Below, piece by piece: positions 41,223 to 64,000 of a stretch of DNA of 64,000 bases. This stretch comes from Ascochyta rabiei (Eukaryota > Ascomycota > Dothideomycetes > Pleosporales > Didymellaceae): the NCBI RefSeq assembly GCF_004011695.2, contig NC_082406.1, positions 2,783,421-2,847,420 on the forward strand. The letters are read 5' to 3'. Each line of letters starts with the position of its first letter. The first letter of the stretch is position 1. Below the pieces are notes generated by a model, which was given only the letters and a program-made list of their open reading frames with translations, was not told the DNA's origin and ran no database searches. Made by a program: the position numbers and the translations under genes.

Positions 41223-42300
41223 CTAGCGCAGAGGCGCTGCTGGCGCGCTCTTAAAGCGCTGAACCTGCAACTGCGCAATCTCAACGCGCCTATCTGCTTC
41301 CTCTTCTTCTTCCTCGCTGTTGTCTTTGCTGTCCTTAATCTCCTCCACCTCGTAGGTCGTCTCTAGAGCCTTGACCTTAATGCTCAGCGTCTTCTTCCCC
41401 TTAATCTCGCCTCCCGCGATGCCCTCTAGGCCTAACCATTCATTAAATTGCTTAGCTGCAAGACAGACATCTGGACGCTCCTTCCTAACTAGCTTAATGA
41501 AGACGTTAACGCCCCAGGAGCAGATCTTGTGCTTAATCTAAGTCTTTAGTATAGCGTTGTCTGGTATAACCAGGAGCACGCCCCAGCCTAGGCCTTTAGC
41601 CACCCTGTACCACTTAAATGCTCTAGTAAGCCGCGCCTAAAAGAGATTCCGCTCTTTCTTAGAAGGGTTAGGGTGGGAGTTAACTAAGTGCAGGAGAGAG
41701 TCTATAGCCTCTGTTCAGCAGAGGCCCTTGCCAAATCAATTTATCTTGTTGCTGCTGACAAGCTTGTTGTTGTGTTTGATCTGCGCTAGCTTGTTAGCCA
41801 ACGCCTTGTCCAGGAGCGCCTGCGCCCACCTGTACTTAATATGCACTAATTTCATTACTTTATTGTAGACGTTGCATTACTCCTACGCAGAGCAGAACGC
41901 TTAGTCTACGCTACTCTACTATAAGGGATTAACCAACATTGCACACAAATGCTGTAGCTGCAAAGAAGGGGCGTTATACTACGCAGCCACTCCGCCGCTA
42001 AAGAGCATTCTGCGCTTTCGCTAGACCTAGAGGAAGTAGGCAGCGTGCTCTTAAGACAATAAGCTCCTAAGAGCGCGCGCCTTGGCCACAAACTTGCGTG
42101 CCTTTAGGTAAGGCGTCTTAACAGCATTATAGAAGTTTAACTTCTTCTTGTTGCTGCTTATAGCTTCCTGCTTAAAAAGCCACAATATAACCTCCTTGTC
42201 CTTAGAGGATATAGACGCGTAGGCGCCACGTTTATTGTTGCCTGCCCTCTAGTCTAGCGCAACAAGGCCAAGATCCAGGCTGCGCTCTAACCAAGATGGG
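41223..42300 (-). pseudogene. Partner-gene fragment of a further family
   Basis: The C-terminal part of a partner-gene homologue ends with TAG at 41223-41225. It contains GAYASISSKDK.VILWLFKQ, NEWLGLEGIAGGEIKGKK and an acidic EEEEEE tail. At 42180-42182 it keeps TGG (W) where units 1, 2 and 3 have TAG, which shows that those stops are secondary. The N-terminal third and any helicase gene next to it are missing. A few W/Q-to-stop changes are present. Confidence 0.7.
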
Positions 42301-42708
42301 TAGGCCAACTATTCTAATGGTTGATTTAGGGGTACGGATTTGTTAGGGACCAGGGCTACAGATTTTGCGTGGATATCTTATCATGGGTACGGTTGGTTTT
42401 TCTCCCAACTACAGTCGTTCTGCAACAACAGATTAGATCTGCTTTAAACTTAGACATATATTTTGCGTTAATAACCTGCATTACCTATGTAAGTTATAGC
42501 AAAATCAGCTTTATAAATTATAGGGGTAGGGTTTGTTATTGTGGTTAGGGTTGCGCTAGCGCGCGGACAATAACTGCATTAACGCAGCAGAACATTAACA
42601 CTATAAACACTAACGTAAGAAAGTAACACACTAAATATATAGTATAGAGCAATTAATTATAGTATACTACATGCCTGCAAAAGGCTTATAGAGCTTAATT
42701 AAGGTAAG
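42301..42708. other. AT-rich spacer between the fragment and unit 2
   Basis: No gene or known repeat seen. It contains short TTAGGG-like words (near 42.53-42.56 kb) and RIP-type AT-rich sequence. Confidence 0.4.
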
Positions 42709-44457: not shown

Positions 44458-44674
44458 AACTGTTTGTTTGTTAATGTAGGAGATACAGCAGAAGAAGAAG
44501 GATGTTTGTTAGGTTTAGCCCCTGACCAGGGTAACGGACTGAACAGAGATCAGCCTGTACAACATAAGCGGGCGCACAAGCTAGAGTGCAAAACTCAACA
44601 CAATTCAGAGATAAGAGCAGTCGCCTTAAGGAAAAAAAAAACACACATATAGAGGCTTGCAGAGGACTACTAAC
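44458..44674. promoter_or_regulatory. Intergenic region of the divergent pair, unit 2
   Basis: 217 bp between two start codons facing away from each other, so it probably held both promoters. It has an A-run at about 44631-44642. No clear TATA box. Confidence 0.35.
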
Positions 44675-47600
44675 ATGTTAGAAGCCACTGTTAAGCATTA
44701 GTACTTTAAGCACTTGGCTAAGTACCAGGTAGCAGTGTGCAAGGAGTGCCAGTACGCAGTATGGCCAGACCAGATTAAGAGCCACTTGCAGAAGCAACAT
44801 AAGAGGCCGATAAAGAACGTTAGAGCTGTAGGGGATGCCGTCCGTTAGTAGGCGGGCTTGCTACAGTACCCCAGCGAGTAGACGGTACCAGACAACAACA
44901 TGCAGCCTATCCCCCAGCTGCCAGTATACAACAATGGCTTACTGTGCCAACTTAAGCCTAAAAAATGCTGGCATATTGCAAGAACCGTTAACTTAATTAA
45001 AAAGCACTGGCGCAAAGACCACAACGGCTGGTCGCTGGGAAAAAGGCAAGGACGTCCTAGCTGAACTCGGGCAGGGGCGTTACAAGCCCAGATGGAAGAC
45101 GGCTGCAAGCGCGTACACTGCCAGCGACTTTTTGGCAGCTGGCACGGATTGCAGTACTTTAAGGTGCGTCACACCCCAGACAGCGGCCCGCAGCCCGTCC
45201 CTACAGAGGGCGAGGCAGCGTAGGCGCGCGTAGGCAAAGAGATGGCCAAGACGTAGGCTAACGTCAAGAACCGGGCAAAGACAACGATCGAAGACAGGGA
45301 GAAGGACGAGGCAGCCCTATGGCTGGAGCGGACTGGGTAGCTGCCGTACTTAAACAAACTGGATTGTCCTGAATTGCTAGCAAGCATTAAGGAGCCTAAT
45401 ATAGACCTAGAGAAAGATAAGGAGCCTGTTAAGGCTGCGATTTAGAGCGCGATGGATGGACTGGCCTGCGTGAGCCAGACGTCTGTTATTAAGCGGACAG
45501 GCATATTCGTGCGCATAGAGGCTATTTGTACAGAGAAGCACCAGACTAGGTACACGCTGCTGCAGGCGTACATAGACAAGAAGTCGATCAAAGAGCAGTC
45601 ACACCTGTGGAAGCAGATACTGATGTTTTTTGCAAGGACGCAGAGGGAGCACTGTTGGAACAGCCCTAAGTACCGCTTCACACAGCAGCAGCGCGAGGCG
45701 TGGGAGGCATTGATTAAGCAGGCAGAGAGAGACGTAGGCGGGGCAGAGATGGAGGTAGCGGACAAGGACCAGGATGAGGACGAGGAGGAAGAGGAGGAGG
45801 AGGACGAGATGATGATCGATGAACTCGACGACGAGCAGGACCCGTCCGAGTGCGACAACAAGCCCAAGAACGAGCCCAAGAACAAGCCTAAGCACGCAAA
45901 GCTGACGCTGATTAAGAAAGCGTGCTTGATGTTTTGCATTGCGCTGCTTGACCAGCGCATCTGCCGCAAGGAGTACGACTGCGCGTTGGTGTGTGCGTTG
46001 GCTGTGCTTAGCGTCAAAGAGGACGGCTGGAAGGATGCCGAGCTGTACCTGCTAATATTGTTGTTAGTAATTAAAATTACCTGTTTTATGGTTGTATAAC
46101 ACGCACTCAAGCTGTCTGAGCCGTTTGAAGAGGAGGTGTTCGACGACGACAGCGCGTACGGGGGGAGCGACAGCGGCAGCAGTAACCCCAGGCTGCGTTG
46201 ACCAAAAGGCTGCTTGGAGTTTGTGTAGCAGATAATGGACAGGTTTATGGTACGAGGCAGCTACAGCCTAATGTAGTAGATGCTTGACTTGCGTACGTAC
46301 AGGCTGAAGGTGCATTTTAACACCACTGCGCGAGGGAACGTTGAGTGGATAGGTAGGGACGAGCTGCTGTACAAGAACGTGCACTTCACTATAGCCTAGT
46401 TCCGCAGCATAGTGCACGGGATGCAAGCAGAGAACAAGCAGATGCTGGTTAAGGAGCTGCTGTTTTGCAACGGGCAGACGGCAGATCAAGTCCCCCAGAT
46501 TCCGTGGGAGCAGCTGCGCGACAACCCGACCGACGATCGACCTGGGTGGAACTTTTTGAAAGACCAGCGCACCCGCATGCCTGTGGACAGAGAGAGCTGG
46601 TTGTTTAAACAAGTGGGGCAAGACGCCACAATGCGGGAGCGGTTCATTAAGCCAGCCACCTGTTCCAGGATTAACAGGAACGAAGTGGAGCGGTACATGG
46701 ACCGTGTGGTTGCGTTTAGGAAGAAGCTGCTCGCGCTTATGCACATGACGGCAGGACAACCTGCGCAGGCGACAGAGATATTAAGCGTCTGACACAGCAA
46801 CACAATTAAGGGCAGGCACTGCAACATATTTATTAAGGACGGCATAGTTGTTTTTGTTACGTAATACCACAAGGGGTACGCTGTTAGCAGCAACGTCAAG
46901 ATTATCTATTGGTACTTGCTGCGTAAGGTAGGTGAGCTGCTGGTGTGGTACGTATGGTTGGTGTTGCCGTTCCAGCAGCAATTAGAGGCGATGGTGTGGG
47001 AGAAGGAGACAATGTCATCCCACTTGTGGCCTGCCGACCCAAACGGGCGCAAATGGACTTCGGAGCGTGTGCGGGAGACGTTGAAGCGCAAGAGCCGAAT
47101 CGGGCTTAAACAAGAGTTGACGATTGCAGCGTACCGTAAGATCGCTATTAGCATCAGCCAGCGATTTTTGCGCGGCTCAACAGCGTTCGCTGCCGAGGAA
47201 GGCGAGAAAAACAAGGAGTGGAAGGAGGAGAATATGGCGGCTATTATTTAAGACGAGCAGTCTAGACACATGTTGCACGTAGCAGGTATGGTGTACGCAC
47301 GCGGCATTATAGAGATAGCAGGTGTCACAGCTAACAGAAGGCAGCTGTTCTGCAACTCAAGCACTAATTGGCACCGGTTTTTAGGTTTTTAGTTGGCTGT
47401 AGACGCATTAGCAGACATGAAGAAGCGCAAGCAGGCGCCGTTCGAGAGCGAGGCCGACGAGGCGAGGATCGAGAGGCTGGAGCGGCTGAGGAAGATGGAC
47501 CCGGCAGCGCAACTCAAGCGAATGAAGGGCAAGAAAGCCAAGTTCAGAGGCGTGCAGAAGGAGGCCATTGAGGCGATCGTTGCCGGCGAGAGCCCCGTCG

Positions 47601-49528
47601 TGGCTGTGATGCCAACTGGCGCAGGCAAGAGCATGTTGTTTATGTTGCCAGCGTAGGCAGAGCAAGGCGGGACAACAGTAGTTGTTGTGCCGTTGATTTT
47701 GCTGCGTGGTGACATAATGCGACAGTGTAAGGAGCTGGGGATATTGTGTGCCGAATGGGCAAGTCGCTGCCTGCCTAACGCAGCAGCCATCGTGTTCGTA
47801 ACGCCCGAATCGGCCGTAGAAGAAGCGTTTGCGACGTTTTTAAACCAGCTGCGAGCGACGCGGCAGCTGGACCGTATCGTGATCAACAAGTGTCACATTG
47901 TGTTAAACCGTTGATACACATTCCGCAAGCAGATGCAACAGCTCAGCAGGCTGGCAGCAGCCGAGACGCAGATGGTGCTGTTGACAGCAACGTTGCTGCT
48001 GACAGAAGAGGACGAGCTGTATTAACGAATGCATTATAAGCAGAAGCAGGTCAGGATGTTTAGACAACTAACTACTAGGACGAACGTGGCGTATCAGACC
48101 ATCAAGATTAGCTAGTCCGCGAAGAAGAAGGACGTCGAGTTGATGGTTGTTAAGACAGTGCGGCAGAAGATGTAGAAGTATAAGACAGGCAAGCTTATTA
48201 TATATAGCAATTCGAAACTAAAGGTAAAGGCGTTAGCAGAGCAGTTAGATTGTTACGCGTATCACGCGGATGCTGTAGGCAAGCTGACCATGTTGGCGGA
48301 CTTTATGGCAGGCAAGCAGCGCGTGATTGTAGCAACGAGCGCGTTAGGGATAGGCGTGGACATACCAGATGTACGGTGCATTATTCACATTAATTGGCTG
48401 TTTACTATGTTAGATTACGCACAAGAGAGCAGCAGGGCAGGCTAGGACGGGTTGCAAAGCGAGGCGGTTTTAATTGTTTAGGATAGGAAACAACGCACCA
48501 ACAACAACAGGACAGAAGCTGAGCGGCAGATGGTGAGGGAGTATGTGGAAGGTGGCGAGAGCAGGGCAGTTGGCTGTAGGAGGGAAGTGTTGGACGGGTA
48601 TTTGGATGGGAGGAAGGATCGAGCAGGGTGTAGAGAGGAGGACAACGAGGAGATGTGCGACGTGTGCCGAGGGATAGACGGGCAGCTAGAGGAGGTGGTA
48701 GAGGAAGAAACAGAAGAAGAGAGCGAGCCAGAGAACAACGATTGGGACGAGATGGACGTTGTTAAAGCCGAGCAAGAAGAGGTGCAGCGGGTGTTTCGGC
48801 AGCAGGAGCAGGCGCGTCAGGGGCCGTGGCAGACGTTAACAGAGCATCGACAGCAAGAGTTTGCCGATATAGAGTGGGTGCGCAGGCAGTTAGCGTGGTA
48901 GGCGAATTGATGCGGGATATGCGAGGGAGCAGGCAACGCGCAGAGCGGACACAACATACAGCAGTGTTAGAGGGCAGAAAGTAAAAAAGTAAAAGAGATA
49001 GTACAGAGGATAGATAATCAAGTTCAGTTTAACATGTTTTTAGGCTGTTTCCTGTGCGGTGGCGTGCCGCAGGAGATTTGCAATAGCTGGGAACTGAACA
49101 GGGAGGGGCGATATTAACAAGTAGAGGACGGAACTTGTCAGTACACTGGGGTATTAAGCGCAGGGTTAATAGGCATAGTATTCGGTTACACAGAGGCAAA
49201 TGCCTAATAGCAGGTCTAATTAGCGGAGCTTGGGGTGGACGATGCAGGACCAGGTAGGATGTTAATCGAATATTTGGGGAAGAAGCAGCCGCTGGACAAC
49301 GTGGAGAGCAACAATTTAGTTAAGGAATTTTGTTAGATTACGCGGTTGTTAGCTGAGTAGACGCAGTAGATGCAGTAGTAGCAAATGAAAGAATTTCTGC
49401 TCACGATTCATAGAAGCGGTGCAGCCGAGTTAGGTTCAGGCTGGGACGGAAGTCAGGGTAGTGGAGTTGCGGTCGGGCCCGGACGCAAGTTAGCATTAGG
49501 GTTGAGTTCCAGTCCGGACGCAAATTAA
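44675..49528 (+). pseudogene. Telomere-linked RecQ helicase, divergent unit 2 family, inactivated by RIP
   Basis: One frame runs from the ATG at 44675 to TAA at 49526-49528 (about 1617 codons) with RIP-type stops only. Domains in order: C2H2-like finger C-x2-C-x11-H-x4-H (CKECQ...HLQKQH) and a second finger with HWRKDH, like fungal OrsD/DUF3505 proteins; VHCQRLF; an acidic run near 45.77-45.83 kb; a recombinase-like domain with GQPAQATEIL (R changed to Q, 46766-46768), YHKGY, AYRKIAI (47135-47137), H (47267-47269) and Y (47294-47296); RecQ motifs PTGAGKSM, INKCH (from DECH), LTATL, ALGIGVDIPDVR, QESSRAG; and C-terminal CGIC and CFLC zinc motifs. It is dead because of stops and mutated helicase motif II. 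It gives the best comparison for units 1 and 3. Confidence 0.85.
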
Positions 49529-49740
49529 GGTAGAGTTACCAGCGTTTATGGCAAGCAGATTATTAATAAGACAGACAAAGGAGCAGAAGCGCACACAAGC
49601 GCAGAGAGCATAAGTAAAGAGGGCAGCAGAGACAAGTAGAGGTGTTGGAGCTGTGGTGGGGGCTGGGATGTATGTCAGGATAGGGTTAGGGTTATATGTG
49701 GTTTAGTTAAGCAAGCAACAGCATGTAGAAGAACACAGAC
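49529..49740. other. Spacer with a short telomere-like run
   Basis: Downstream of the unit 2 helicase. TAGGGTTAGGGTTA occurs at 49681-49694. No gene seen. Confidence 0.5.
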
Positions 49741-50360
49741 GCCCGCAAGAGACAGCCACCAACCTGAGTAGTTCCCTCTAACCTATGCAGATCCCCCAAC
49801 CCAAGTAAAGCCCCCAACCCAAGTAAAGCCCCCCAACCTAAGTAGAGCCCCTAACCCATGCGGATCCCCCAACCTATGTAGAGCCCCCCCGACCTAAGTA
49901 GAGCCCCCAACCTATGCGGATCCCCTAACCCACGTAGTCAGCACCAACCCGCATAGTCAGCATTAACCCACGTAGTAAGCATCAACCTGTGTAGTAAGCA
50001 TTAACCTGCGTAGTAAGCATTAACCCGCGTAGTATCCCAAGTGGTTCCCAAAGTGGTCCGCCAACCCAAGTGGTTGCCTAGTAGTCCCCCAGCCTGAGTG
50101 GGTCCACAAGTGGTTCCCTAAGTGGTTCTACAAGTAGTGCGTTAACCTAAGTAGTTGCCCTACCTAAGTGGCACGTCCAACCTGAGTAGGTCCCCCAATC
50201 CAAGTGGTTCCCAAGTAGTTCCCCCAAGTGGCCCGAAAGTAGTCCCCCTAAGTGGCCCAAAAGTGGTCCCTGCAAGCCAAGGGAGTCCACATTAGTGCCC
50301 CTAAGTAGTAAGAGCCGATCATTTAAGAACAGCGCACAGCCCAGAAAGAGCCTGTAAACC
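49741..50360. repeat. Minisatellite block downstream of the unit 2 helicase
   Basis: Same three-part organisation as in unit 1: CAACCCAAGTAAAGCCCC units, then CGTAGTAAGCATTAACC units, then AAGTGGTTCCC units. Its presence after a helicase of another family indicates that the array travels with the units. Confidence 0.85.
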
Positions 50361-50600
50361 AGGAAGAGCACCTAAAAGCAAGTAAGTCTCTAACCTAAAG
50401 CAGCCGTTTGTATTAAAAAGAAAGCGCAGGATTAAGACAACAAAAATTAGGGAAAAGTAAGATATAGAGAGGAGGAGGCATTTAAAAAGGTTTTTAGGCG
50501 TTTAGAGAGTATTGTCACAAGATAGAACAGTAGTTAGGGGAAGTTTAGCAAACCCGATTGTGGTGCCGCAGCCAGAAAGGCATTCCTAATCCTGTAGATG
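50361..50600. other. Conserved unit tail
   Basis: Nearly the same as 40.55-40.79 kb, ending GGCATTCCTAATCC. It includes AAGCAGCCGTTTGTATTAAAAAG and a GATATAGAGAGGAGGAGGC stretch. No coding potential seen. Confidence 0.55.
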
Positions 50601-51530
50601 TTGTAGTGCGTGAGAGAAGGGTGGGCGGTGGGCCCGTTAGGTGTCACAAAGCAGTCGGGCGGGGCGGTAGAGGGTGAAGGAGAAAGAGGGGAGGTGGGTA
50701 GGGCCGTGATAAGGTATCACGAGCAAGGGATAAGGGAGAGAAGAGGGTAGAAGAAGGGGTGGGCGGTGGGCCCGTGGGTGTTTTAAGAGAGGGTCGCTGA
50801 GAAGAAGGGAGAAGAGGGTGGGCGGTGGGCCCGTAAGGTGTCACAAAGAAGCCGAGCGCAGCGGTGAAGTAGAAGGGGGGGGCGGAAGGCCTGTGGGGAG
50901 GCACAAGAAGCGCAGTAGTTAAGAAAAGAGAAGAGGTAGGCGACGAAGCCGTGATGAGGTATCATTGAGAGGTCAACATAGCAAAGTAGTAGAGAGGTAA
51001 GCCGTGATAATGTATTACAAGGACGCCGAGCGAAGTAGTTGACAATAGCACAGAACAAGAAGAGGCTGACAGTAAGGCGTACAACCCGTAGAGGTGCCCC
51101 CGAGCCCGTAGAGAGGTCCGTAACCCGTGAAGAGGCCCCCGTAACCGGTGCGTTAGTGACGCGTAACAGGGGTGTAGCAGATACCTGTCTGAGAGTGCAG
51201 CAAGTGTCAACGGAAGCGTGGTCGAGACCGTTGGAGAAAGGCGAAAGGGTGGAGAGGGAGGGAAGGCGGGCAGTTGAGGAGCATGACCTGTAACCAGTAA
51301 GAGACGACAGCAAACAGCCCGTAAAAGGCCCCGTAACCCGCGAGAAGATTAACAGAGCGAGCAGATCAGTTGTTAAAAGCAGAAGAGCACAGCATCAAAC
51401 CGTGGAAATGATCGAGACAGCGTTTAGGGGAGAAGAACCGAAGGGGGGCCCGTAAGGCGTCACAAGAGAGTAAGCGTAACAAAGACGTCAGATAAGTGAA
51501 GTTAGGTTTGGGACCAGACACAGGTCGAGG
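50601..51530. repeat. GC-rich degenerate minisatellite with hairpin units
   Basis: Irregular repeats of GGGCCCGTNAGGTGTCACAAAG and CCGTGATAAGGTATCACGAG types. The second type is an inverted repeat (CGTGAT-AAGGT-ATCACG). Related repeats recur at 59.8-60.17 kb next to the present end, which suggests that this block once was next to a telomere as well. Confidence 0.7.
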
Positions 51531-51546
51531 TTAGGGTTAGGGTTAG
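51531..51546 (+). repeat. Interstitial telomeric repeat
   Basis: TTAGGGTTAGGGTTAG lies 16 bp before the start of unit 3 and in the same orientation as the real telomere. It probably marks a former chromosome end to which unit 3 was added. Confidence 0.8.
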
Positions 51547-51575
51547 CCGCATTTGCAGGCCTCCCAGTGATTATA

Positions 51576-51600
51576 CGAACAAAGACAGTGTATTTGTTCG
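51576..51600. repeat. Inverted repeat at the left end of unit 3
   Basis: CGAACAAA - 9 bp - TTTGTTCG, followed by TTTGTTCG at 51646-51653 and 51669-51676. It is identical in unit 1 and lies about 12 bp inside the unit boundary. Confidence 0.6.
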
Positions 51601-51879
51601 CTTTGCCTATGTAAATTTTAGCGTGAGCACAGACACTCGACTGTATTTGTTCGCTTTTTCAGCGTGAATTTGTTCGCTGTTCCTGAAGTCAAATATTGCT
51701 GCAACGATTGCGGAACGTGTACAAAGTGCGTCCCAATTGTATGTTGAATTTCTAGAAGAATCGAGCATACGGTACGTGAGTGGAATATAGTAGATGTTTC
51801 AATATTAATGTTCGCAATGTTGTAGGGCAGTATCGATAAGGTATGTAGCACAATGTTCAGAGTTAAGCGCAGGTAACAT

Positions 51880-53604
51880 CTACTCTACAGGATGGAACAA
51901 TTCAAGCAAAGTTAGCTGACGCAACCGCAGAGCTGGCGTAGGACTCTTCGGCGAAGCATGACTTTGCTCTCTGGTGCTGTCGTCAACGCTGTTGTCAGTT
52001 TCGTCGTCTTTGCTGTCTTGAATCTCTTCCACCTCGTAGATGGTTGCTGGCGCCTCCGCCTCAATGCTCAGCGTTTTCTTCTCGTTGATGGGCCCGCCAG
52101 CAATTCCCTCTAGCCCTAACCAGTTCTTAAGTGCCTTGCTAGCTGCACAAATGTCTGGACACTCCTTCTTAAGTAGCTTAATCCAGACATGCAGCTGGCC
52201 TACACGGAGGGTGCGTTCTATCTAGCGATTCGCAATCTCGTCGTGTGGTATCAGGGTCAGAATGCCCCAGCCTAGCTCCTGACTAATGGAGTACCAGCGC
52301 ATGGCTTGGCCTAACCGTCGTCTAAACACCTGCTTGTCCTTCTTAGTGGCGTTGGGACTAACTAACTCTACTAGCGCTGCAACTGCCTCTGTGTGGATCT
52401 GTCCCTTTCTGTATCGATTTTGCGTCCTGTTGTTGCTAGATACAAAGTTGTTATGCTGGATCTGCGCTATCTTGTTGGAGTATGCTTGACCTAGGAGAGC
52501 TAACGCCCATCGAGACTTGATATGGACAGCTGCTAGCTCTGCTTTGTAACGTGTGCACATGTTCCAGGCAAAGCAGAAATCCCTGTCAGCATCGTTGCGC
52601 ACACTTAGCAGCTGCAAGCGCTTAGCTCCCGCACCGGTCCTGCTCTGGCTGCCAGCGAGCTCGCCGCCACCTCTGAAGGGTGAGCCACGTTCTCGCCAAG
52701 CCTGCAGGAACTGGGCAGCGTGGTACCGAGAGGACTGGTTTCCAAGCACGCGCGCTTTCTCTAGAAGGGTGCAGGCCGTAAGGTAGGGAGTTTGGGTAGA
52801 GCTGTAGAAGTCCGTGTCATCGGAGACCGGCTGCTTGATGATCTAGGCGATAACGGACTTGTCCTTTTGCACAATAGAGGTGTAGGCAGCCTGCTCTGGA
52901 AGAGGAGCCTTGTCGCCAGGTGCTACCAGACTAAGGGCAAGCCGCTTCTTCGCACGCGAAGTGGCGAGTGTCCTGCTGCGTTTTTGCTCCGCACGGCGGT
53001 TGTTGTTGGAGATGGTAGTGATGTGCAGAGGGGAGTCTTTCAGCTGCTCATCTGGTTCGCTAGGCTGTGACAGCTGAGGGCTGGCTGGATGTGTCTCATC
53101 GGTGGTTGTTCGAGCGCGCTTTGGTGTAGGGGCCGGCGCAGATAGGTGTGGCCGCTTCTTTTGTTGCAGGGGTGGAGCGGAGGCCTGTTGTGAAGGGGAA
53201 GCAAAGGGCTTCTGCGCAGACGGCGGCTCTTCCATCCCGTCCTCCGCAAGCGACTCGGCCGCGCAGACCAGACGATCCCAGATATTGTCAGGCAGGACGT
53301 CGTCGGCGAGCGTCTCGCGCAGAAGCCAGATCGCTGACAAGACGGAGTGGGCAATGAAGACGGGCTTGCAGACGCTGGCATCGTCACGGGTGGGGATCAG
53401 CCATCCTGCGCTGTGCGGACGAGCACCTGGATCACGCTGCGAGCGTGAGATGGTCGCTCGGCAGAAGAAGAGCTTCTTGTAGTCCTCATTCGGCGGCTCG
53501 TACGCGTAGTTGCGAACGAAGTCAGCTTCGCTGGCCAGAGGAAAGCTCCGACGACCGCCATCAAACCGCTCTGCGGCGCTGTCTAATGCTGCCAACCAGT
53601 GCAT
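51880..53604 (-). pseudogene. Partner gene of the helicase, unit 3 copy (unknown function)
   Basis: From the ATG at 53604-53602 to TAG 51880-51882, 575 codons in one frame, broken by TAG at 52843-52845 and 52222-52224. Both stops replace tryptophan: the fragment at 41.2-42.3 kb has TGG at the first site, and unit 2 has TGG at the second. Visible parts are MHWLAALDSAAERFDGG (start), LLRETLADDVLPDNIWDRLV, a Pro/Ala/Gln-rich linker, a basic NNRRAEQKRSRTLA segment (possible nuclear signal), RYHAAQFLQAWRERG, RWALALLGQAYSNK, LGWGILTLIP, LGLEGIAGGPINEKK, and a Glu/Asp/Ser tail. No known domain recognised. I chose this start because a longer reading to 53712 would need GTG and unit 2 starts at the matching ATG. 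Confidence 0.75.
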
Positions 53605-53901
53605 TATCGACTTGTGTACTGCGAATGAGGTTGCAAGCGGAAGTTTGGACGAAGGTTGTGCGGAAAGGGGGTTGGGTGTTGTTGAGGTTCTGACGCGGTC
53701 ACACCGCGGCACCGAAAGTCAGGCCGCGCACGGATGTACCACGACGCCCTTACCAACCAGCGTTAGCGGAGCTGGGAGCGCAATCAAACCAAAAGCAAGA
53801 TCGATACACAGTCTGTCGATTAATATGCCAGGGGATAGCAAACACTAGGCTAACGGACGTGTTGCATAGCGCCCACTTGTGTCCCTTCTGCTCCTTACAC
53901 C
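53605..53901. promoter_or_regulatory. Intergenic region of the divergent pair, unit 3
   Basis: 297 bp between the start codons of the partner gene and the RecQ gene, so it probably served both promoters. There is no obvious TATA box. The same region in unit 1 is collinear but has lost the RecQ start codon. Confidence 0.4.
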
Positions 53902-56900
53902 ATGGAACTATTTGCGCAGCTGTTTGAACACCGGCCTGAACTTCGAGTCGTAGTTTGTAAACCATGTGCCACTGCTATTCCACCAGCGCAGATCGTTACG
54001 CACCTCAAAGAGCGCCATCCCAAGGTCACAGTCGCTACGCGCAAGAGCCTGGCGGCAGCTGTACGCGCGCTACCAAACCTTGCGTGGAGTCCAGGAGACG
54101 TGCGTGTACCAAGGCCGGCTAAGGAGCCCGTCTTTGGTCTAAAAGCAAGAAGACGGGCTGGTATGCTTGTCGGAGCGTTGTTGGTATACCTGCATCTCGC
54201 TGCAGGGCATGCAGAAACATTGCAAGGATAAGCATGGCTGGGTGAACGAACAAAAGCGAGGGGGAGATATGAGGCAAAAGAGCAAGCACTCGCGCAACCG
54301 AGTATGGCGAGACAGCCAATCCTGCAGCGCTTGTTCAGAGCTGTTGGCTGGCCGGCGTATGTTGCAGTCGAGACGAGCGTTGGAGCTGCGACTCTAGCAG
54401 ACATCTCCCAGAGAGTGAAGGCAGATCGCCAGCATCAGCGAGAAGAGTGTGAGGCAGCAGCAGCGCAGGATAAGATTAAAGAGGGCATCCGTTCGCAGGC
54501 TGATCCGTGGCTAGAGCTCACAGAATGGGTCCCGCCTACAAGGTATCCAAGGGCGGCACTTCTGCGCGCTAAACAGCTAGCTGGTGGGGAGGTAGACGCG
54601 CGTGGGAAGGAAGAAGTGGCGTTTGACGACACGGCTTACGCGATGTTTGCAAAGCTATGGAGCGGCTGATACGAAAAGCGTTCGATAGCAGCCGAGCTGA
54701 GGTTGTCGGCAGACTCGCACTGGAGATTATCGAGCGACGTGAGGCGGGCGCAGAATCGAACGAGCGGCCCTTCTACGCTAGGCATCGAGTCGGTACGATC
54801 AAGAAGTACAGCCAGAAGCTGGTGAGCATCCTCTGCTACCTGTGGCGCACATATGACCAGGTCGAGCGGCCGCCATACAAACTTACCAGCACGCAAGACG
54901 CCCTCTTGGTGTCACTCCAGCAAATAGCCCGCTCAGACGACGCTGCGAAGAAAGAGAAACTGGAAGAGCGATGCCTGCGCTTTTGGATCGCCTTGCTCAA
55001 CCACAGCCTGACTGGCGACGAGCACGAGAGCGCACTGCTGAGCGGAGTGGCTGTCCTCGGCCTCAAGCCTGATCACCATGGCGGTGGGTGGGTTCCGGCG
55101 CACGAGTTCTCGCCAACGCTGTCTGCTTTGATCACTACCTCGAAGCTTGTAGTGCATCATGCCCGCTGCCAGCGAGATAAAGCGCTTCAGAAAGACCCTT
55201 GTACAGCACCTACTGCGTATAAGCTAGTTAAAGACATGTCTGAACGGTTTATGACGCTGTCCGACTTCAAAGGCACACCCAGTCCTATGAATCGAATGCT
55301 CCGCTTGCGTACGCTAGCTAGAACACAGGCAAAGCAACGTAATACTCCCGGTATCGTGTCGTGGGATGGAGATCGGCTTCTCATTGACAAGCAGAGCTTT
55401 TCGCTAGCCGATCTCCGGTCGATGGTGAAGGGACTCTGCGAGACGGTGCGGTTGCAGCTATTCAAGGACGTCCTACTCTTGGATCTAGACGAAAGGGGTT
55501 GCGTGCAACCCGGGACTACCCCGCTTCCAGAGGTGTCCGTGGACAAACTCGTCGATCAGCCAGCCGAGCTGGCTACGGGCTGGAGCTTTCTGAAGCACCC
55601 CGACAACCAGCTAGATAGATGGCAAGACTGGCTTCTAGACCGGGTGTTGGACAAGGCTCCGCTAAGGGAGAGATTCATTCGTGGGATAGATAGCACACAA
55701 CGGCCGGAACGGACGCTATGGCGCGATGACGCTGTAGCTAGGTACATGAAAGGAGTGCGTCGGTTTAAAGAAGGCCTCTTCACGCTTGTTCACATGTCTG
55801 GCGGCGGGCCTGGTCGCGGGACAGAGATTACCTCGATACAGTGCGAGAAACAGTGCAGACGGGGTGGGGTATCGGGGGGTGTTTGTAGAGGGTGGCCTGG
55901 TATCCTTCACCACTACGTACCACAAGGGGTATAGCTTCAGCAAGCGTGTCAAGACGATCCACCGCTATGTTCCCCGGGAGGTGGGTGAGCTGGTGGTGTA
56001 CTTCCTCGGCTCGGTCGACCGTTCATAGATGATCTCCAGATGCTGCACAATGGCGTTGCCGCCCTACCGCTTTTATCTGGGAGCCAGAGCCGGAGGAGCA
56101 GTGGGGCGACGAGAGCGATAGCGAAGAGAGCGACGACAGAGACAAGTACGGCGAAGCCGACCGTAAGAAGGCACGATCCGCTAACCCAGACGGGTACTGG
56201 GGCACCGATCGCATACGCCGTGTCCTGCGCGAGCAGACCTTTCAGTACATGAACACCGCTCTCGGCACCCGCGCCTGGCGGCATGCCTACCCAGCCATCC
56301 ACCGAGAGCTGGCAAGAGATGGACAAGCACGCGACTGGTTGGAAGTGCTCTACTGGAACAAAGCGCCGGCGAAGAGCAACGCGCAAGCGTTGCAGTCCGG
56401 CCACAGCCTTGAAACAGAGGAGGGCAACTACGGCCGCTCCATGATGGAGTCTCCCTTTCAGACCATGGCTGAGCGGGAGGAGTTCCGGCGGGTGAGCATG
56501 GACTGGCATCGCGTGCTGGAGTTTGCATCCGCCTGGGAGGACGGCCGCATGCACCCCGGTGTTCGCGCAGAGATGGTAGCGCAGCAAGAGAAGCAGGCGC
56601 TCCAGCGCTGGTCGTCGCTCGCGATGGTGGACCTCAAGGCAGAGTTCAGGCGACTCGCTGGACGGCCGGACGCCGAGTATCGTGGCAAGCAAGAAGAAAG
56701 CCTCGAGGCTGTAATGCAGCAACGGCTGCGCGTGCTAGTTGTTATGGCTACCGGCACCGGCAAGAGTATGCTGTTCATGCTGCCCGCGTCCGTCTCGCCA
56801 GGCGGCGTCTCCGTGGTCGTGGCTCCGTTGAATGCCTTGCGAGACGATCTGCAAGATCGCTGCGACCAGCTCGGCATCCCCTGCGCGAAGTGGGATGGAA

Positions 56901-58501
56901 GAAGACCGCCGTACTGGGCTCGTATTGTGCTAGTGACGCCTGAGAGCGCAGTCACGAAGGCGTTCGGCAGGTTCATTAACGAAAAGCGCATGCTCCATCA
57001 GCTAGATCGTATCGTGATAGACGAGTGCCACGTGCTGCTGGAGTCGACACAGGACTGGCGGCCAGACCTCCTCAAGATGGTGGAGATGACGGAGAAGGGC
57101 ACACAGGTTGTCTACCTGACTGCAACCTTGCCGCCCACGCTGCAGCCCGCCTTCTTGCACACCGCAGGGCTCGATGCCCAGACCGTAACCATATGCCGCG
57201 ATGAACGCACCACGCGAACGAACATTGCGTACCAGGTGCTAGAGTACACACGTGGCACGCTAGAAAAAGTACTTATTGAGCTTGTGGCTGCGAAGAGGAG
57301 TAGGTACGGACCCAAGGCGCAGATCATCGTCTATTGTCCAACTGTGGACGAGACGAAACGGCTTGCGAAGCTTCTGCAGTGCTCTGCATACTACCGTCAG
57401 ATGGGCTCAGACGAGGAAAAGGCACGCATGGTGCGAAGCTTCACCCTGGGCATAGAGAAGCTTTGTACAGCCACGAACATGCTGGGTCTTAGGCTCGACG
57501 CTGCAGGCGTCCGGGTGGTGATCCACGTTGCCATGTGTCCCCTGCTGCTCCAATATGTGCAAGAGAGCGGCCGGGCGGGACGAACAGGGCTCGACAGCGA
57601 GTCTATTGTTATGAGAGCGTGCTATGTAACGAAAGAGGGGAGGGTAGAGAAGGCGCTCGGCTACAAGCTGGAGCGACCTGCAAAGGAGTTTATGACAGTC
57701 GAATCCTGTCAGCGAATCGCGATAGACAAGCACATGGACGGCAGACAGAACAGGCAGCAATGCGAGATAGGAGAGTCGAAGTGTGATCTATGCGAGCGAC
57801 ACCCCGGTGGTACCAAGCAACAAGCCGTCGAAGAAGAGCAGGAAGAGCCAGAGGAGACGCAGGCCGACACCGCGGCGGTGGCAGCAGAGGAGCAGCGCAG
57901 ATGTATAGAGCGAGCTATGGTCGTTAAAGAGCAGAGGGTTGAGATCCGGCAACAGCGAAGGACGGAACAAAAAGTATATGACCTGGAGCGGCTAGAGCAG
58001 CACTTCCAGCGCTGGAGCAATGCGTGCGCCATCTGCATGGCCACTCAGGCTGACCCGGCGCGCCACGACTGGAAGGACTGTTCAAAGGCCAGCGGAGCGC
58101 AGATGACATTAATGGAGTCTAAGGTGAAATCTATGCACTAAGTGAAGTGGGAGAAGTATGCGCGGTGTTTTTACTGCTGGGCGCCCTAAGCCATCTGCAA
58201 CAAGTGGGAGGAAACAAGCATACAGGGTGCGTTTAAGACACAAGGGATGCATGTGCCTTGCCAGTACGATAGAGTGCTCCAGAGAGCAGTAGCTGCGCTG
58301 CTTGCCTGCCAGCCACTGATGTGCACGCCATGGCTGGAGCAGCAGATGCAAGACGCCGCGATTGTGCACGGTAGCGATGAGCTCCGGCTTTACAAGTGGC
58401 TCGGATTAAAGATCAAGATGGGCCAGAGAGACGCGAGCCAGATGTGTCGTTTCCTATATGCTTGGGAGGAGGGGCATGTGCAGTCGTATTTAGCAGACTA
58501 G
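53902..58501 (+). pseudogene. Telomere-linked RecQ helicase with recombinase-like domain, unit 3 copy, broken by indels and two old stops
   Basis: ATG 53902 to TAG 58499-58501. In order: C2H2-like finger CKPC...HLKERH (residues 19-38); second finger CWYTC...HCKDKH; VGWPAYVAVE; a helical region (54657-55810); box I-like PGRGTEI (R at 55815-55817); YHKGY (K at 55924-55926); IHRYVPREVGELVV; WRHAY (R at 56279-56281); SGHS (H at 56402-56404) and NYG (Y at 56429-56431). RecQ motifs follow: GTGKS (K at 56762-56764), APLNALRDDL, DECH (57020-57031), LTATLPP, QESGRAGRTG (57560-57589). Then C-terminal CDLC, CAIC and CFYC zinc motifs. Compared with unit 1 it has frame-changing indels near 54139-54155 (-2), 54323 (-1), 54631 (-1), 55848 (+1), 56006 (-1) and 56059 (-1). 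TAA at 58139-58141 and about 58190 are shared with unit 1. The largest open pieces are 54657-55934 and 56249-58141. The role in telomere maintenance is inferred from fungal telomere-linked helicases. Confidence 0.85.
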
Positions 58502-58669
58502 AAAGAATGTGTTTGATATAACCGTAACCCGAAACCTTAGGTCAGGAGAAGTCAGGAGAAACGTGCTGTAGGCTGACTTGCGACTGCACGGTGATCACAA
58601 GTCAGAAAGTGCAAAACAGCCAAATAGCAACACAGACACTTCAGAGACGTAGAAAGAAACGCCCAGAGA
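58502..58669. other. Post-gene spacer, unit 3
   Basis: Collinear with 39.77-39.94 kb in unit 1. It contains GTCAGGAGAAGTCAGGAGAAACG, a short tandem repeat. No terminator recognised. Confidence 0.4.
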
Positions 58670-59330
58670 AGGGCCACCGACCAAAGTAGTCCCCACAACC
58701 CGAGTGATACCCGCCAACCCGAGTGATACCCGCCAACCCAAGTAGAGCCCCCCAACCCAAGTAGAGCCCCCAACCCATGCGGATCCCCCAACTCAAGTAG
58801 AACCCCCAACCCAAGTAGAGCCCCCAACCCATGCGGATCCCCCAACCCAAGTAGAGCCCCCGACCCAAGTAGAGCCCCCAACCCAAGTAGAGCCCCCGAC
58901 CCAAGTAGAGCCCCCAACCCATGCGGATCCCCCAATCCACGTAGTCAGCACCAACCCGCATAGTCAGCATTAACCCGCGTAGTAAGCATCAACCCGCGCA
59001 GTAAGCATCAATCCACATAGTCACATGGTCAGCATCAAGCCGCGTAGTCAGCACAAACCCGCGTGGTTCCCTGAGTAGTTCCACAAGTAGTGCGTCAACC
59101 CAAGTGGTTGCCCCACCCGAGTGGCACGTCCAACCCGAGTGGGTCCCCAATCCAAGTGGTTCCCAAGTAGTTCCCCACGTGGTTCCCCAAGTAGCGCGCC
59201 AAGTAGTGCGCCACCCTAAGTGGTCCAAAGTAGTCCCCCAAAGTGGCCCGAAAGTGGTCCCTGCAAGCCAAGGGAGTCCACATCAGTGCCCCAAGTAGTA
59301 AGAGCCGATCATTTAAGAAGAGCCCCCGAT
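58670..59330. repeat. Minisatellite block downstream of the unit 3 helicase
   Basis: AAGTAGAGCCCCCAACCC-type units (58.69-58.94 kb) alternate with ATGCGGATCCCCCAA variants. They are followed by CGTAGTCAGCATCAACCCG units and AAGTGGTTCCC units. Compared with unit 1 the number and order of variants differ, so the array is changing by slippage or unequal exchange. Confidence 0.87.
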
Positions 59331-59800
59331 CCAGGAAGAGCCCACAATCTGGAGAGAGCAGACCAAACCAAGTAAGTCCCTATCCGAAAGCAGCCGTGCG
59401 TATTGAAGAAAGTGAGAGTCAGGACAAAGTAAATTGGATAGATAGTAGAGTAGTTAAGAAAGACATGCGCAATAGGTAGAAGAGCCAGCAGGATGGTGGA
59501 TAGGAGAGGTACAAGAAGTTGTTCGTGCAAGAGGGCGTCAATCGCGTTGATCGCGCGAATTTAGATTGGGCGGGGTTGGTTGCTTTGTAAATCGGGTATA
59601 AGAATGAATAGTAGAGGGAAAGGGCATTTGAACAGGGTATCAGGTGGATTGGAAAGATGGAACGGGATGAAAATGACGTGGAGCAAGGTGTTTTGGGCGT
59701 TTACATAGTATTGTCACAAGATAGAACAGTAGTTAGGGGAAGTTTGGCAAATCCGATTGTGGTGCCGCAGCCCAGAAAGGCATTCCTGAACCTGTAGATG
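59331..59800. other. Tail of unit 3
   Basis: Partly matches the tails of units 1 and 2 (TATTGTCACAAGATAGAACAG and GGTGCCGCAGCC...GGCATTCCT are shared), with a divergent insert at about 59.40-59.68 kb. No gene supported. Confidence 0.5.
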
Positions 59801-60298
59801 CCGTAGTGCGTGAGAGAGGGGCGGGCGGAGGGCCCGTCAGGTGTCACAAAGCAGTTGGGCAGGGCGGTAGAGGGTAAAGGAGAAAGAGGGGAGGTGGGTG
59901 GGGCCGTGATAAGGCATCACGAGCAAAGGATGAAGGAGAGAAGAGAGTAGAATAAGGGTGGGCGGTGGGCCCGTGATAAGGTATCACGGGAGAGGGGGTA
60001 GAGGGTTGGGCGGGGGGGCCCGTGGATGTGCCCCCGGAGCGATGCGGTTAAGAGTGAAGGAGGGGAGGTGTTTAAGACCGTGAAGCGGGATAGAGAAGAG
60101 TAGCAGGTAAGCAGGGTGAAGAAGAGAAAGTGGGTGGGCGGTAGGCCCGTCAAGTGTTACACAAGAGTGAAGAGGCAGTTGTAGAGATAGATAAGCGGTA
60201 CAGAGAGCGGTTTTAAGGCGAATTTTTTTCAGCAACGCAATGGTAGTAGCAATTAGAGTAGCGTTGTTCATGCAGCAGTATAACAGCGCGCAAGTAGC
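59801..60298. repeat. GC-rich hairpin minisatellite, terminal copy
   Basis: GGGCGGNGGGCCCGT and CCGTGATAAGG(T/C)ATCACG repeats, related to 50601-51530. The hairpin unit occurs near 59.90 and 59.97 kb. The last cytosine on this strand in the window is at 60298. Confidence 0.7.
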
Positions 60299-63200
60299 AG
60301 AGATAGGGTTAAGAGATGTATAAAAGAAGAAAAGGAAAGAAAAGAGAAATGAAAGAATTGTTAAGAGAAGAGAATAGTAGAGAGGATAAAGTAAGAAGAG
60401 AAGTAGAAAAAGGTAAAAAATTGTTAAAAGAGTGTTAGTAGGATAGAAAAGATAGTTAAATGTAGTATTTAATAAAGAGAGAGTGTAAAAGTATTAGAAA
60501 AGATATTTAAAGTGATTAAGATGTAAAGATAGTAAATGAAGAAAAAAGAGTAGAAAATAGAGAAAGATGAAAAGAAAGAATTAAAAAGAAGAGAAGAAAG
60601 TAGAAGAAGAAGTTAGTTTATTAAAAGATGTATGAAATAAAAGAGTAGTTAAATAGAAGGTGAAAAGAAAAGAAAGATTAGAAAGAGTAAAAGTTGAGAA
60701 AAGAAAGAAGGTTGAAGAGAAAAAGTGTAGAAAGAGGAAGGAAAGGAAAAAGTAAAGTAAAAAGGAAAGTTGTAGTTTGTTAGAAATTTAAAAAGGTTGA
60801 GGAAGAAGTAAATAAGGAGAAAAGAAGAGAAAAGGTATAAAAAGAAGTAAAAAGTAGAGAGTATATGTTTAAAGAGTTTATAAAGAGTTTAGGGAAAGAG
60901 ATAAGAGATAGAAAGAAGAGAGAGATTGAGAAGAAAATTTAGAAAAGTAGAAAGAATAAGAATAGAGTAAAGAAAGTAAGAGGTAAGGATAGAAGAAAGA
61001 AGTAGAAGAAAAGGAAAAGAAGTTAAAAGAGGTTAGTTAAGAAGAAAATAATGTTTAAGAAAGAAAGATAAGAGAGTAAAGTAGGTTAAGAAGAGAGTAA
61101 GAATAATAGGTAGGTGTTAGTATAGAAAGAGAGTATAAGTTTAGAAAAGAAAAGTTAGTAGGGTAAGAAGTAAAAGTAGTGTAAATAAAAGAAAAGAAGA
61201 GAGAAGAAGGTTAAAAAGAGAGATAAAAGTAGAAGGTTTTAAAAAATAAAGAAAGTAAGTTGTAAGAAAGAGAGTAAGAATAAAAGAGAAGAGTAGGGGT
61301 TAAGTGTAGGAGAAGAAGTAAGAGTAAGAGAAAGAAGGTGTAAGGATAAAGGTGGGAATATTAGTATAGGAAGAAAGTGTAATTTTAGAGAGAAAAGTAA
61401 AAAAAAATTAAGTTAGTAGAGTAAAAGATAGAGTAAAGAGTAAATATAGGTGTAAAGAGAGAAGGAAGAAAGTTAAGGTGTTAGAAAAGAGAGTAGTAGA
61501 GAAAAGTAAGTGGAAAAGATGAGTAGAAAAGATAAGAAGAAGAGAGTAAGTATTAGGAGTAAAAAATTAGAGAGAGAAGAGAAAGGTAGAAAGAGAATAA
61601 GTAAGATAGAGAGAGGGTAAGTGAGAAAGTAAGTGTATGTGTTAGGAAGAAGGTAAGGAATAGAGTGAGAGAAAGTAGAGAAGAAAGTAATAGTAATAGT
61701 TAGGTTTTAGTGTGAGAAGAGAGATAGGGTTTGGAGAAAAGTTAGAAGAGTAAAATTTAAAGTTTTAAAAAAGAGAGAAGAAGGAGAATAGGAAAAGAAA
61801 GAGTAGTAGTTTAAAGAAAGATTATTAAAAAGTAGAGAAGATTAGGAGTAGTAGAGTAAGGAAAGGAAAGGATAAGGGAAGTAGAAAGGATAAGAAAAGT
61901 AGAAAGGATAGAGAAAAGTAGTAAGGATTAGAGAATAGGTATTGTGAGTAGAAGAGTAGAGGGAAGAAAAAGATAAGAGAAGAAGAAGTAGGAGAGAGTA
62001 GAATAAAGAGAAGAGTAAAGTAAGGAAGAGAGTAGAGTAAGGAAGAAGGAGAGAATAAGTGTAAGGGTTAGGGTTTTAGAGTAAAAAGAGGGTTAGGGTT
62101 TTAGTGTAAGAAGAGAGGTTAGGGTTAAAGTAGGAGAGAGTGTGGAAAGAGAAGAGGTAGAGGTAAGAGTGTAAGTAAAAGTAAGGAGTAAGGTTTAAGT
62201 GTAAGAGAAGAGTAGAGGTAGGAAAGAGAGAGTAGAGAAGAGGGTGAAAGTAGAAATAAGTAGAAGTAAAGGTAAGGGTGAGGGAGAGAAAGTAGGAGGA
62301 AAGAAGAATTTAAGAGTAAGAGAGGGTAGAGTGTAAGAGGAAGAGTTAAGGAGAGAAGTAGAGAGTAAAGATTAGAAGAAGGAAGAAAGTAGGGATAAGG
62401 AAGAGAAAGTGTAAAGGTTTTAATGTAAGAATAAAGAAGAGTGTAAGAGTAAGTATAAGGGTTTTAGTGTAGGAAGAGGGTTGGGGTTTTAAGTAAAAGT
62501 AGAAGAAAAGAGAAAGATGTAGTAAGTGGTAGAAAAGAGTAGAAGAAAGAGAAGGAAGAAGTAGAATAAGTTAAAGAAAAAGTAGTGTTTAAGAGTTAAG
62601 AAAGTAGGAAAAAGGAGAAGAAAGTAGAGGTAATAAGTAAAAAGAGAAAAGAAGTAGTAGAAGTAGTAGAAGAGGTAGTAGTAGAGAAGGAGTTTAGATT
62701 GTAAAAGGGTTAGGGTTTTAGTGTAGGAAAAGTGTTAGGGTTTTGGTGTAGGAAGAGTAGGTAAAGGTTGAGGAAAAGAAAGGTGAGAAAAGGAAAAAAG
62801 AAGAAAGAGAGTTTTGTAGTAAAGTTTTAGAAAAAGAAGGAGAAGGTGAGTGTAGGTTAAAGAAGAAAGTAAGAGGTGAAAAAAAAGTAAGTAGAAGGAA
62901 GTAAGTGTTAGGAGTAAAAAAGTAGAAAGAGAAGGAGAGTTAAGAAGAAGAATTAAGAAGAAGAGAGTAGAAGTGAAGGTGAAAAAGAGGGAGAAAATGT
63001 AGGGGTGAGGGAGAAAGAGAGTAAGAGAGTTAAAGAAGAAGAGTGTAAGGGTAAGGGGTAGGGTTAAGTTAGAAAGAAGAGTTAGAGGAGTTTAAGGGTT
63101 GGGGAAAAAAAGGGTAGAAGAGAAGGAGGTGAAAATAGAAGAGAGGGAAGAAAAGTAAAGTAGAGTGTGAAGAAAGTAAGAAAAAGAAAGTAAGAGTAAA

Positions 63201-63901
63201 AGTAGTAGTAGAAAGAGAAGTAAGGATAGAAGGAAAAGTAGAAGAAAGAATAGAAAAGAGTAGAGGAAAAGAAAAGAAAAGGGAAAAAGGGAGTAGAGGT
63301 AGAAGTAGTAGTAGTAGAGAAAAGGGTTAGGGTTTTAGAGTAAGAAGAGTGTTAGGGTTTTAGTGTTAGAAAAGAGGTTAGTAGAGAGAAGTAAGTGGAA
63401 AGAGTAGGAAAAGAAAAAAAGAAGGAAGGAGGTTTTAGAGTTGTAAAGAAGGAAAAAGAAGGTAAGTGTAAGGTGAAGAAGAGAGTAAGGAGTTAAAAAG
63501 AGGTAGGTAGGAGAAGGTAAGTGTTAAGAGTAAAAAAGAAAAGAGATAAGAAAAAGATAGAGAAAAAGAGTTAAGAAGAAGGAGTTAAGAAAGAGTAAGA
63601 AAAAAAGAGGTTAAGGTGAAAGTAGAAGAGAGTGTAAGTAAGAGTAAGGTTTAGGGTTTTAGTGTATGGAAAGAGGGTAGGGTAAGAGAAAAGAAGAGAA
63701 AGAAGAGAAGAGTAGAGGTAAAAGAGAAAGAGTAGAGATGAGTGTAAAAGGAGTAGTAAGTGTAAGTAAAGGTAAGGAAGAGGGAGGGTTTAGAAGTAGG
63801 AGAGGGTGTAAGAGTAAGGGTTAGAAGAAGGAAGAAAGAAAGTAGGAGTAAAGAAGAGAAAGTGTAAGAGTAAGTGTTAGGGTTTTAGTGTAGGAAGAGG
63901 G
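60299..63901 (+). repeat. Cytosine-free, GA-rich telomere-adjacent tract
   Basis: Reading every line from 60299 to the end, I find no C on this strand; the other strand therefore has no G. The sequence is mostly A and G with some T. Scattered copies of a 24-bp-like unit GTTAGGGTTTTAGTGTAGGAAGAG occur near 61.70, 62.06, 62.09, 62.46, 62.71-62.76, 63.33-63.37, 63.65 and 63.88 kb. No gene is possible in the usual sense. The strand bias is the same as in TTAGGG DNA, so this may be an extended degenerate telomeric or subtelomeric satellite. Confidence 0.9.
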
Positions 63902-64000
63902 TTAGGGTTAGGGTTAGGGTTAGGGTTAGGGTTAGGGTTAGGGTTAGGGTTAGGGTTAGGGTTAGGGTTAGGGTTAGGGTTAGGGTTAGGGTTAGGGTTA
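63902..64000 (+). repeat. Telomere (TTAGGG)n
   Basis: About 16.5 perfect TTAGGG units reach the end of the window, with the G-rich strand pointing right. This is the canonical telomere repeat of filamentous ascomycetes, so the window ends at a chromosome end. Confidence 0.98.

Follow-up and report, generated by a model that had tools for sequence, protein, structure and literature searches.

Why do RecQ-type helicase genes lie in many copies at the chromosome ends of a fungus, and could such a gene have a part in getting there? We took up this question at the right end of contig C2 of Ascochyta rabiei (genome 40.9 Mb, 23 contigs), in a stretch of 64,000 nucleotides (NC_082406.1, positions 2,783,421 to 2,847,420; hereafter the window) that closes in TTAGGG repeats. 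Upstream of these repeats are three tandem units, in each of which a partner gene runs leftward and a RecQ gene rightward, and all are damaged. The outermost, unit 3, carries the telomere-linked helicase (TLH) gene under study (Table 1). An earlier reading of the letters alone, here called the sequence-only reading, had placed a tyrosine-recombinase active site in the middle of the TLH protein and had proposed that the gene and its divergent partner form a mobile element. Our analysis leads us to think that the TLH gene probably belongs to a mobile DNA element of two genes by which chromosome ends are capped, with the recombinase-RecQ protein joining it to them.

A fixed inner terminus joined to many flanks

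Units 1 and 3 are 93% identical over 7869 bp, and their match begins at the same base (32824 and 51561) after unrelated upstream sequences; unit 2 is of a divergent type. We searched the genome for the unit 3 terminus, allowing at most two mismatches, and found 37 places, 31 of them exact and 6 with one mismatch; a backwards-pattern control gave 0 matches in the genome. All 37 termini lie within 45 kb of a contig end and face the nearest chromosome end (18 on the plus strand near right ends, 19 on the minus strand near left ends), and of the 46 contig ends, 17 left and 16 right ones carry them. Flanks were read for 36 of the 37 (C12:35400 was left out). Sixteen junctions (two in the window, then four and ten elsewhere) had been chosen by gene position or internal sequence; 15 of them begin with CTCC and one, C2 left, with TTCC. 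The first bases of the 20 other junctions prove nothing, because these were chosen by the terminus pattern itself, and only their flanks count. By gapped comparison the 36 flanks make up 32 distinct sequences; the ungapped comparison gave 33, which the gapped pairing of C5 right with C22 left lowers to 32. In-register identity among the flanks of the first 16 junctions reached 59% at most. The flanks include AT-rich repeats, outer sequence of the unit 2 type and G/A-rich telomere-like tracts; the flank at C1 is part of an older partner gene, and that at C3 probably belongs to older tandem repeats. The element has a precise inner end, many unrelated flanks, a constant orientation and the telomere on its outside.

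These flanks bear on an explanation in which homologous recombination spreads the subtelomeric helicase repeats from end to end, in the manner of yeast Y' repeats, and in which the central domain is structural or a degenerate relic. Several observations fit it. Of 20 left ends fetched, 15 align over nearly the whole first 10 kb to the window end at 98.05-99.12% identity, and C13 aligns over 9.2 kb. Three ends (C17 left, C20 right and C22 right) have identical 30-nt flanks, which suggests exchange of whole ends after attachment, and flanks are near-identical in two further pairs (C6 right and C11 right; C5 right and C22 left). Passages of PMC4522978 also mention that Y' is amplified between telomeres. 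However, 32 distinct flanks at one base are not expected from homologous exchange, and homologous recombination alone is therefore no explanation; the six residues discussed below are, moreover, among the most conserved of the domain. We consider this explanation improbable: the flank data contradict it as the sole mechanism, and it stands as a second mode of spread.

At the ends that were read, the outer end of the element is the telomere. The left ends of C6, C11 and C12 have no unit 3 element in the outermost position, and the C4 sequence begins with N. At C6, C11 and C12 the sequence runs on past the junction at 51560, and the first 100 bp of this continuation have no match in the window; unit 1, for its part, stops where unit 2 starts. 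Elements therefore seem to have been added to shortened ends, with loss of the distal remainder.

The terminus has an anatomy of its own. As DNA, the near-palindrome just inside it folds more stably on the plus strand than any of 200 shuffles (z -4.3), and on the minus strand 3 of 200 shuffles were as stable (z -2.9). The 10-mer ATTTGTTCGC has 7 exact matches in the whole window, all at most 120 bp from the left ends of the three units: three each in the related units 1 and 3, and one in unit 2. Three places in the genome match the inner sequence of the unit 2 terminus, CTCGCTGC; two of them share one flank and the window has another. Its fold is no better than that of shuffles (z -1.3; 23 and 22 of 200) despite a 7-bp stem.

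The main rival to a DNA-based account is an RNA route resembling that of HeT-A, in which an inward transcript from the telomere ends at a fixed terminus and is copied onto a broken end by a reverse transcriptase acting in trans, from a telomeric retroelement or telomerase, and the recombinase-like domain has another role. A fixed end pointing inward with the telomere outward is the orientation known for end-attached retroelements, the copies are placed at chromosome ends, and the TLH frame of the C5 copy, the longest open stretch in any copy seen, is free of introns for 1359 codons. Serial attachment is a further likeness to HeT-A/TART, MoTeR and FoTeR, the last as described in the passages available. 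These elements encode or use reverse transcriptase, whereas no reverse-transcriptase domain was found in the 10 open reading frames of at least 150 amino acids within 51561-64000, nor in the partner. At the 36 junctions, where an inward RNA would have left its A-tail, runs of T never exceed two, and the end has a palindrome and motifs common to two divergent element types. On this evidence we judge the RNA route unlikely.

A candidate active site in the TLH protein

In unit 3, the stretch that separates the zinc-finger (OrsD) part from the RecQ part has R, E, K, R, H and Y in order, with H and Y nine residues apart, as the sequence-only reading had described. In the window copy these residues are spread over three frames (R and E; K; and R, H and Y together with the RecQ part). 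We left the frame unrepaired and used other genome copies and homologues in its place. The degraded unit 2 carries the same series with Q for R in box I, also as described; homologues that resemble unit 2 here (P0133, P0128) have R. In the A. rabiei genome, 17 of 19 unit-3-type copies examined keep all six residues (the K of the C7 left copy lies in a poor match). The exceptions are C10 left (R to C) and C21 left (R to Q), and the older unit 1 also has R to C. No unit-3-type copy was seen within the stretch read at four further ends examined.

Homologues came from two protein searches, which gave 34 and 174 homologues, respectively, with 120 of the 174 listed. Of 136 proteins taken on, 117 cover the central region, and the other 19 were dropped because they do not. 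Conservation of this region is favoured, because the search used words from the same region. The sequence-only reading had held that homologues without the R, H or Y would refute it; R, K, R, H and Y are instead kept in the 117 homologues (Table 1; gaps omitted), and the three departures from the six-residue set occur in one protein each (P0136, P0081, P0002). All six residues are within the 18 of 343 positions conserved at 99% or more, and twelve other positions are equally conserved. Among the 83 proteins under 85% identity, pairwise identity has a median of 41% and a lowest value of 26%. A precomputed DEAD domain is present on 104 of 120 matches listed in the second search, and the full-length members checked (P0036, P0095) have an N-terminal OrsD and a C-terminal helicase. 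We note that the RecQ part of P0036, P0095 and P0132 also matches DpdF, a bacterial helicase model, to 1.5e-38, which is weaker than the RecQ models and far below the DpdF cut-off.

We compared the domain with tyrosine recombinases box by box. Box profiles were made from about 70 non-redundant XerD-like sequences, with lambda Int in some runs and without it in others, and slid over a TLH family profile of 48 non-redundant proteins and 1618 residues; significance was taken from column shuffles. For box I, the best place in the whole 1618-residue profile is AGAPARATEL, which 0 of 200 shuffles equalled. Box III has its best place at RQSGHSPQMEESIYGRQ (5 of 200 shuffles as good). The b3-helix segment, which is beyond the boxes named by the sequence-only reading, has its best place at KCVHRFVPQEVGELVVYYL (2 of 200). 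When box I, the b3-helix segment, box II and box III were required in canonical order, the best chain fell on exactly the four expected places (z 9.0, 0 of 200 shuffles); this test used the shorter b3-helix box rather than the K-hairpin box. As decoys, the profile without the domain gave z 0.2 (78 of 200) and the reversed profile z 0.4 (53 of 200). The first spacing windows were set knowing the TLH spacings. Repeats without lambda Int, on two reference proteins and with tight and loose spacing, gave z 9.4, 6.8, 8.9 and 6.6, with 0 of 400 shuffles each; the values of 6.6 and 6.8 were obtained with windows of 10-400. Single-sequence box scans were weak, and a short beta-hairpin box missed the K. 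Decisive support for the predicted recombinase relationship comes from the family-averaged scan and the colinear chain test only.

The likeness to XerC and XerD extends to R-x-[ST]-E, a K..HR.VP-helix pattern, R-[HQ] and GH[ST]-x7-Y with nine residues from H to Y. The TLH domain differs from XerD in the distance from the box I R to K, which is 36 residues versus 24 (12 more), and in a long acidic insertion before box II. It also lacks the HxxR histidine and a significant whole-profile match to XerC/XerD. The R, K, R, H, Y series is very probably an active site of the tyrosine-recombinase type, within a putative integrase fold. These comparisons strongly indicate that the middle of the protein is a putative tyrosine-recombinase-type catalytic domain, fused to OrsD-type zinc fingers and a RecQ motor.

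The same data bear on the view that R, K, R, H and Y are a coincidence in an unrelated nucleic-acid-binding fold, with the fixed terminus being the work of the partner protein or of a host nuclease. HMMER and hhalign give the recombinase assignment no support, twelve other positions are conserved as strongly as the six, and the partner protein has no assigned function. However, a coincidence would have to account for a joint box test at z 6.6-9.4 against at most 1.8 for decoys, and for a match in the b3-helix segment that the sequence-only reading had not used. We give this view little credence.

How the element may join chromosome ends

Site-specific processing of ends would explain the fixed terminus, and the recombinase-RecQ protein is a candidate for it. 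We propose that this protein would (i) bind the palindrome and the repeated ATTTGTTCGC motifs at the inner end; (ii) cut or exchange strands at the terminus through a covalent tyrosine intermediate, while the RecQ motor opens the DNA; and (iii) join the inner end to an eroded or broken chromosome end, the joining itself being assigned to the putative recombinase domain. Copies may then spread among ends by ordinary homologous recombination.

Several results weigh against this reading, and we set them out together. On the side of the protein, the sequence-only reading had named a significant integrase-fold match as support, and none was found by Pfam (19 proteins), PHROGs (12 proteins), a PDB profile search with HMMER, or hhalign. 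In hhalign runs against 140 aligned XerD-like sequences plus lambda Int, nothing rose above controls: reversed or shuffled controls scored as high or higher, and in one run the reversed control outscored the real domain. The silence of hhalign is weak evidence either way, because it was used without a positive control of similar distance. In the family scan, WRQAYP is only the fourth-best place for box II, whose best place lies elsewhere (49 of 200), and a longer box around the K hairpin scores best in the helicase and next best at the expected place (9 of 200 shuffles equal the best). The partner family, used as a decoy in the chain test, reached z 1.8 and was equalled by only 8 of 200 shuffles (reversed partner, z 0.1, 82 of 200). 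The HxxR histidine, three residues before the box II arginine, is not conserved in the 117 homologues: S stands there in 52, A in 22, R in 16, M and K in 7 each, and other residues in the rest; the same histidine is replaced in type IB topoisomerases and protelomerases. The earlier claim of a recombinase active site accordingly keeps its residue conservation and its box-by-box similarity to XerD, and lacks the fold match and this histidine.

On the side of the DNA, no result here ties the catalytic residues to the junctions. Use of the palindrome as a simple crossover core site is not favoured, because the junction lies 15-19 bp outside it. A target preference for A at -4, seen in 14 of the first 16 junctions, failed in the new ones (11 of 20, or 7 of 16 without duplicates). 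Finally, two unit-3-like gene copies (C8:17296, C12:23612) lack a terminus match where one would be expected, and no unit-3-type gene match adjoins three of the termini (C2:29605, C5:2351767, C12:35400); all of these look like older, damaged copies.

The partner gene completes the proposed element. It is open as a single 600-codon frame at the C14 left end. Its PF28402 label comes from precomputed annotation, and the partner had no match in the Pfam set that we scanned. We found 106 partner homologues. In 10 cases, one of them A. rabiei, partner and helicase proteins occur on contigs of equal size (rows picked by eye, and equality of size rather than a map), which points to partner-helicase linkage. 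Together with one exact terminus joined to 32 distinct flanks, this supports the earlier suggestion that the helicase gene and a divergent partner make up a mobile element.

If the central domain is a recombinase, TLH genes would be enzymes of a chromosome-end mobile element, and their number, position and outward orientation would therefore be explained. More broadly, and tentatively, we suggest a DNA-based, self-encoded form of end capping, in which a tyrosine-recombinase-RecQ fusion acts at a palindrome-marked end and attaches to eroded ends a 12-kb module that carries the telomere; the RecQ families found in ascomycete subtelomeres might then be transposases of a widespread class of end-specific elements and not host helicases. 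HeT-A-type elements do with RNA what this proposed system would do with DNA. If true, this would be a directly testable mechanism for telomerase-independent end capping, and the exact terminus and the conserved putative catalytic residues are ready-made substrates and mutants.

Related systems and the remaining features of the window

TLH-type genes have reportedly been known at least since 1998, from Ustilago, and a study of 2009 is said to describe a TLH-specific motif in Magnaporthe that may cover part of the central domain. The window gene belongs with them: it has a RecQ helicase core, is subtelomeric and is multicopy, and its homologue P0054 is named tlh1 by its source. As passages of PMC11893274 and PMC10532341 describe them, the TLH genes of filamentous fungi, UTASa of Ustilago and tlh1 of fission yeast are the same kind of gene, namely subtelomeric multicopy RecQ-like open reading frames; the OrsD and RecQ domains were found in our own domain scans. 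The available passages of these two papers, PMC4522978 and PMC12857005 present TLH genes as helicases whose role is telomeric or unclear (PMC11893274 calls their function unclear, and the abstract of PMC12857005 speaks of "host TLHs"), and a recombinase-like domain and an exact element terminus are absent from those passages. PMC7473861, in the part available, found no domain beyond the helicase core in fungal subtelomeric RecQ proteins, and PMC11457142 equates an OrsD gene with a Metarhizium recQ gene. In the titles, abstract openings and passages of the open-licence papers listed by our searches we found no report of a recombinase domain in TLH proteins.

Passages of PMC11893274 link single-nucleotide polymorphisms in telomeric helicase genes (ctg05_2388561, ctg14_6054, ctg14_1527717, ctg15_1503638, ctg20_6490) to the aggressiveness of isolates. 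If the contig numbers of that paper equal those used here (C5, C14, C15, C20), these polymorphisms lie in near-identical end elements, where short reads may mis-map.

Other mobile elements share some of these properties. Cryptons resemble the TLH element in their element-encoded recombinase and in having no terminal inverted repeats, and differ in the short direct repeats at both termini, which the TLH element, with one fixed terminus and a telomere, does not have (PMC3212892, in the main text of which, as available, the word helicase is absent). Among 19 TLH proteins, Pfam gave no match to the Crypton recombinase domain (DUF3504-like), GCR1_C or DUF3435. The DUF3435 captains of Starships belong to fungal elements of the recombinase type and are not known to be telomere-bound. 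Searching the A. rabiei genome with PF11917 (DUF3435) gave 16 matches on C9, C7, C18, C15, C12, C20 and C8, none at a TLH place. Fifteen of these 16 Starship-captain-type matches have internal stops. PF00589 had no match in the same genome, and PF12012 had one, below the cut-off. The passages of PMC3627910 mention a RecQ helicase once, in Academ. Like the TLH element, yeast Y' consists of subtelomeric helicase repeats with interstitial telomere tracts between copies (PMC4522978, in part); unlike Y', the TLH element has a precise terminus joined to many unrelated flanks.

Table 1. Position of units, genes and sequence motifs in the 64,000-nucleotide window
Feature	Position	Strand	Remarks
Unit 1	32824..40793	+	older copy of unit 3 type, same left terminus; outer side cut where unit 2 begins
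Unit 2	40794..51560	+	divergent element type with a separate left terminus (CTCGCTGC), a stem of 7 bp located 19 bp inside and a single ATTTGTTCGC
Terminal (unit 3) element	51561..64000	+	proximal terminus fixed at 51561; telomere as distal end
Left (proximal) terminus CTCCCAGTGATTATACGAACAAAGACAGTG	51561..51590	+	begins CTCCCAG; same terminus at 32824 in unit 1
Near-palindrome CGAACAAAGACA-G-TGTATTTGTTCG	51576..51600		25 bp, 15 bp inside the unit 3 terminus
Three direct copies of ATTTGTTCGC	51592..51677	+	start at 51592, 51645 and 51668; within 120 bp of the terminus
Partner gene, PF28402 family, ~570-600 amino acids	51919..53718	-	in-frame stops in window copy; extent projected from C14 left
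TLH gene	53839..58509	+	OrsD zinc fingers, central tyrosine-recombinase-like domain, RecQ helicase; extent projected from C21 left copy
Box I-like R-x-x-E (PGRGTEI)	55815..55826	+	R 55815-55817, E 55824-55826; each in 116/117 homologues
Candidate hairpin lysine (YHKGY)	55924..55926	+	kept in 117/117
Candidate box II arginine (WRHAY)	56279..56281	+	kept in 114/115
Candidate box III H and Y at nucleophile position	56402..56431	+	H 56402-56404, Y 56429-56431, nine residues apart; 114/114 each, 3 gaps omitted
RecQ-type helicase core	56678..57802	+	Pfam DEAD 1.5e-18, Helicase_C 4.8e-10; RECQ5 and RECQ1 structures to 2e-22
Tandem repeats of 18/19 bp (ACCCAAGTAGAGCCCCCA type) with related short repeats	58680..59261	+	downstream of TLH gene
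C-free telomere-like outer tract	60299..64000	+	ends in TTAGGG repeats at 63898-64000

The window copy of the TLH gene is broken, and the C21 left copy, of about 1557 codons, itself carries two stops. Stops are fewer in the outermost copies (0-6 in most full matches). Many are found in the inner units 1 and 2 (21 in the unit 1 match), with changes like those of repeat-induced point mutation. The outer side of unit 2 closes with an interstitial GGTTAGGGTTAGGGTTAG, from which unit 3 is separated by 14 bases. The outer tract runs for 3.7 kb without C on the plus strand, consists only in part of telomere repeats (10 TTAGGG between 60000 and 63897), is common to the 15 ends that align over the first 10 kb and looks like a degenerate telomere-type sequence. 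Farther in, positions 1-32000 are AT-rich, with several families of 300-nt blocks that recur at about 6.8 kb and longer spacings and look like decayed dispersed repeats. A large inverted repeat is found at 14616-18454 (arms of 1871 nt, 88% complementary, spacer of 97 nt), and the flank of the C16 left junction matches within one of its arms (15556-15607, 98%).

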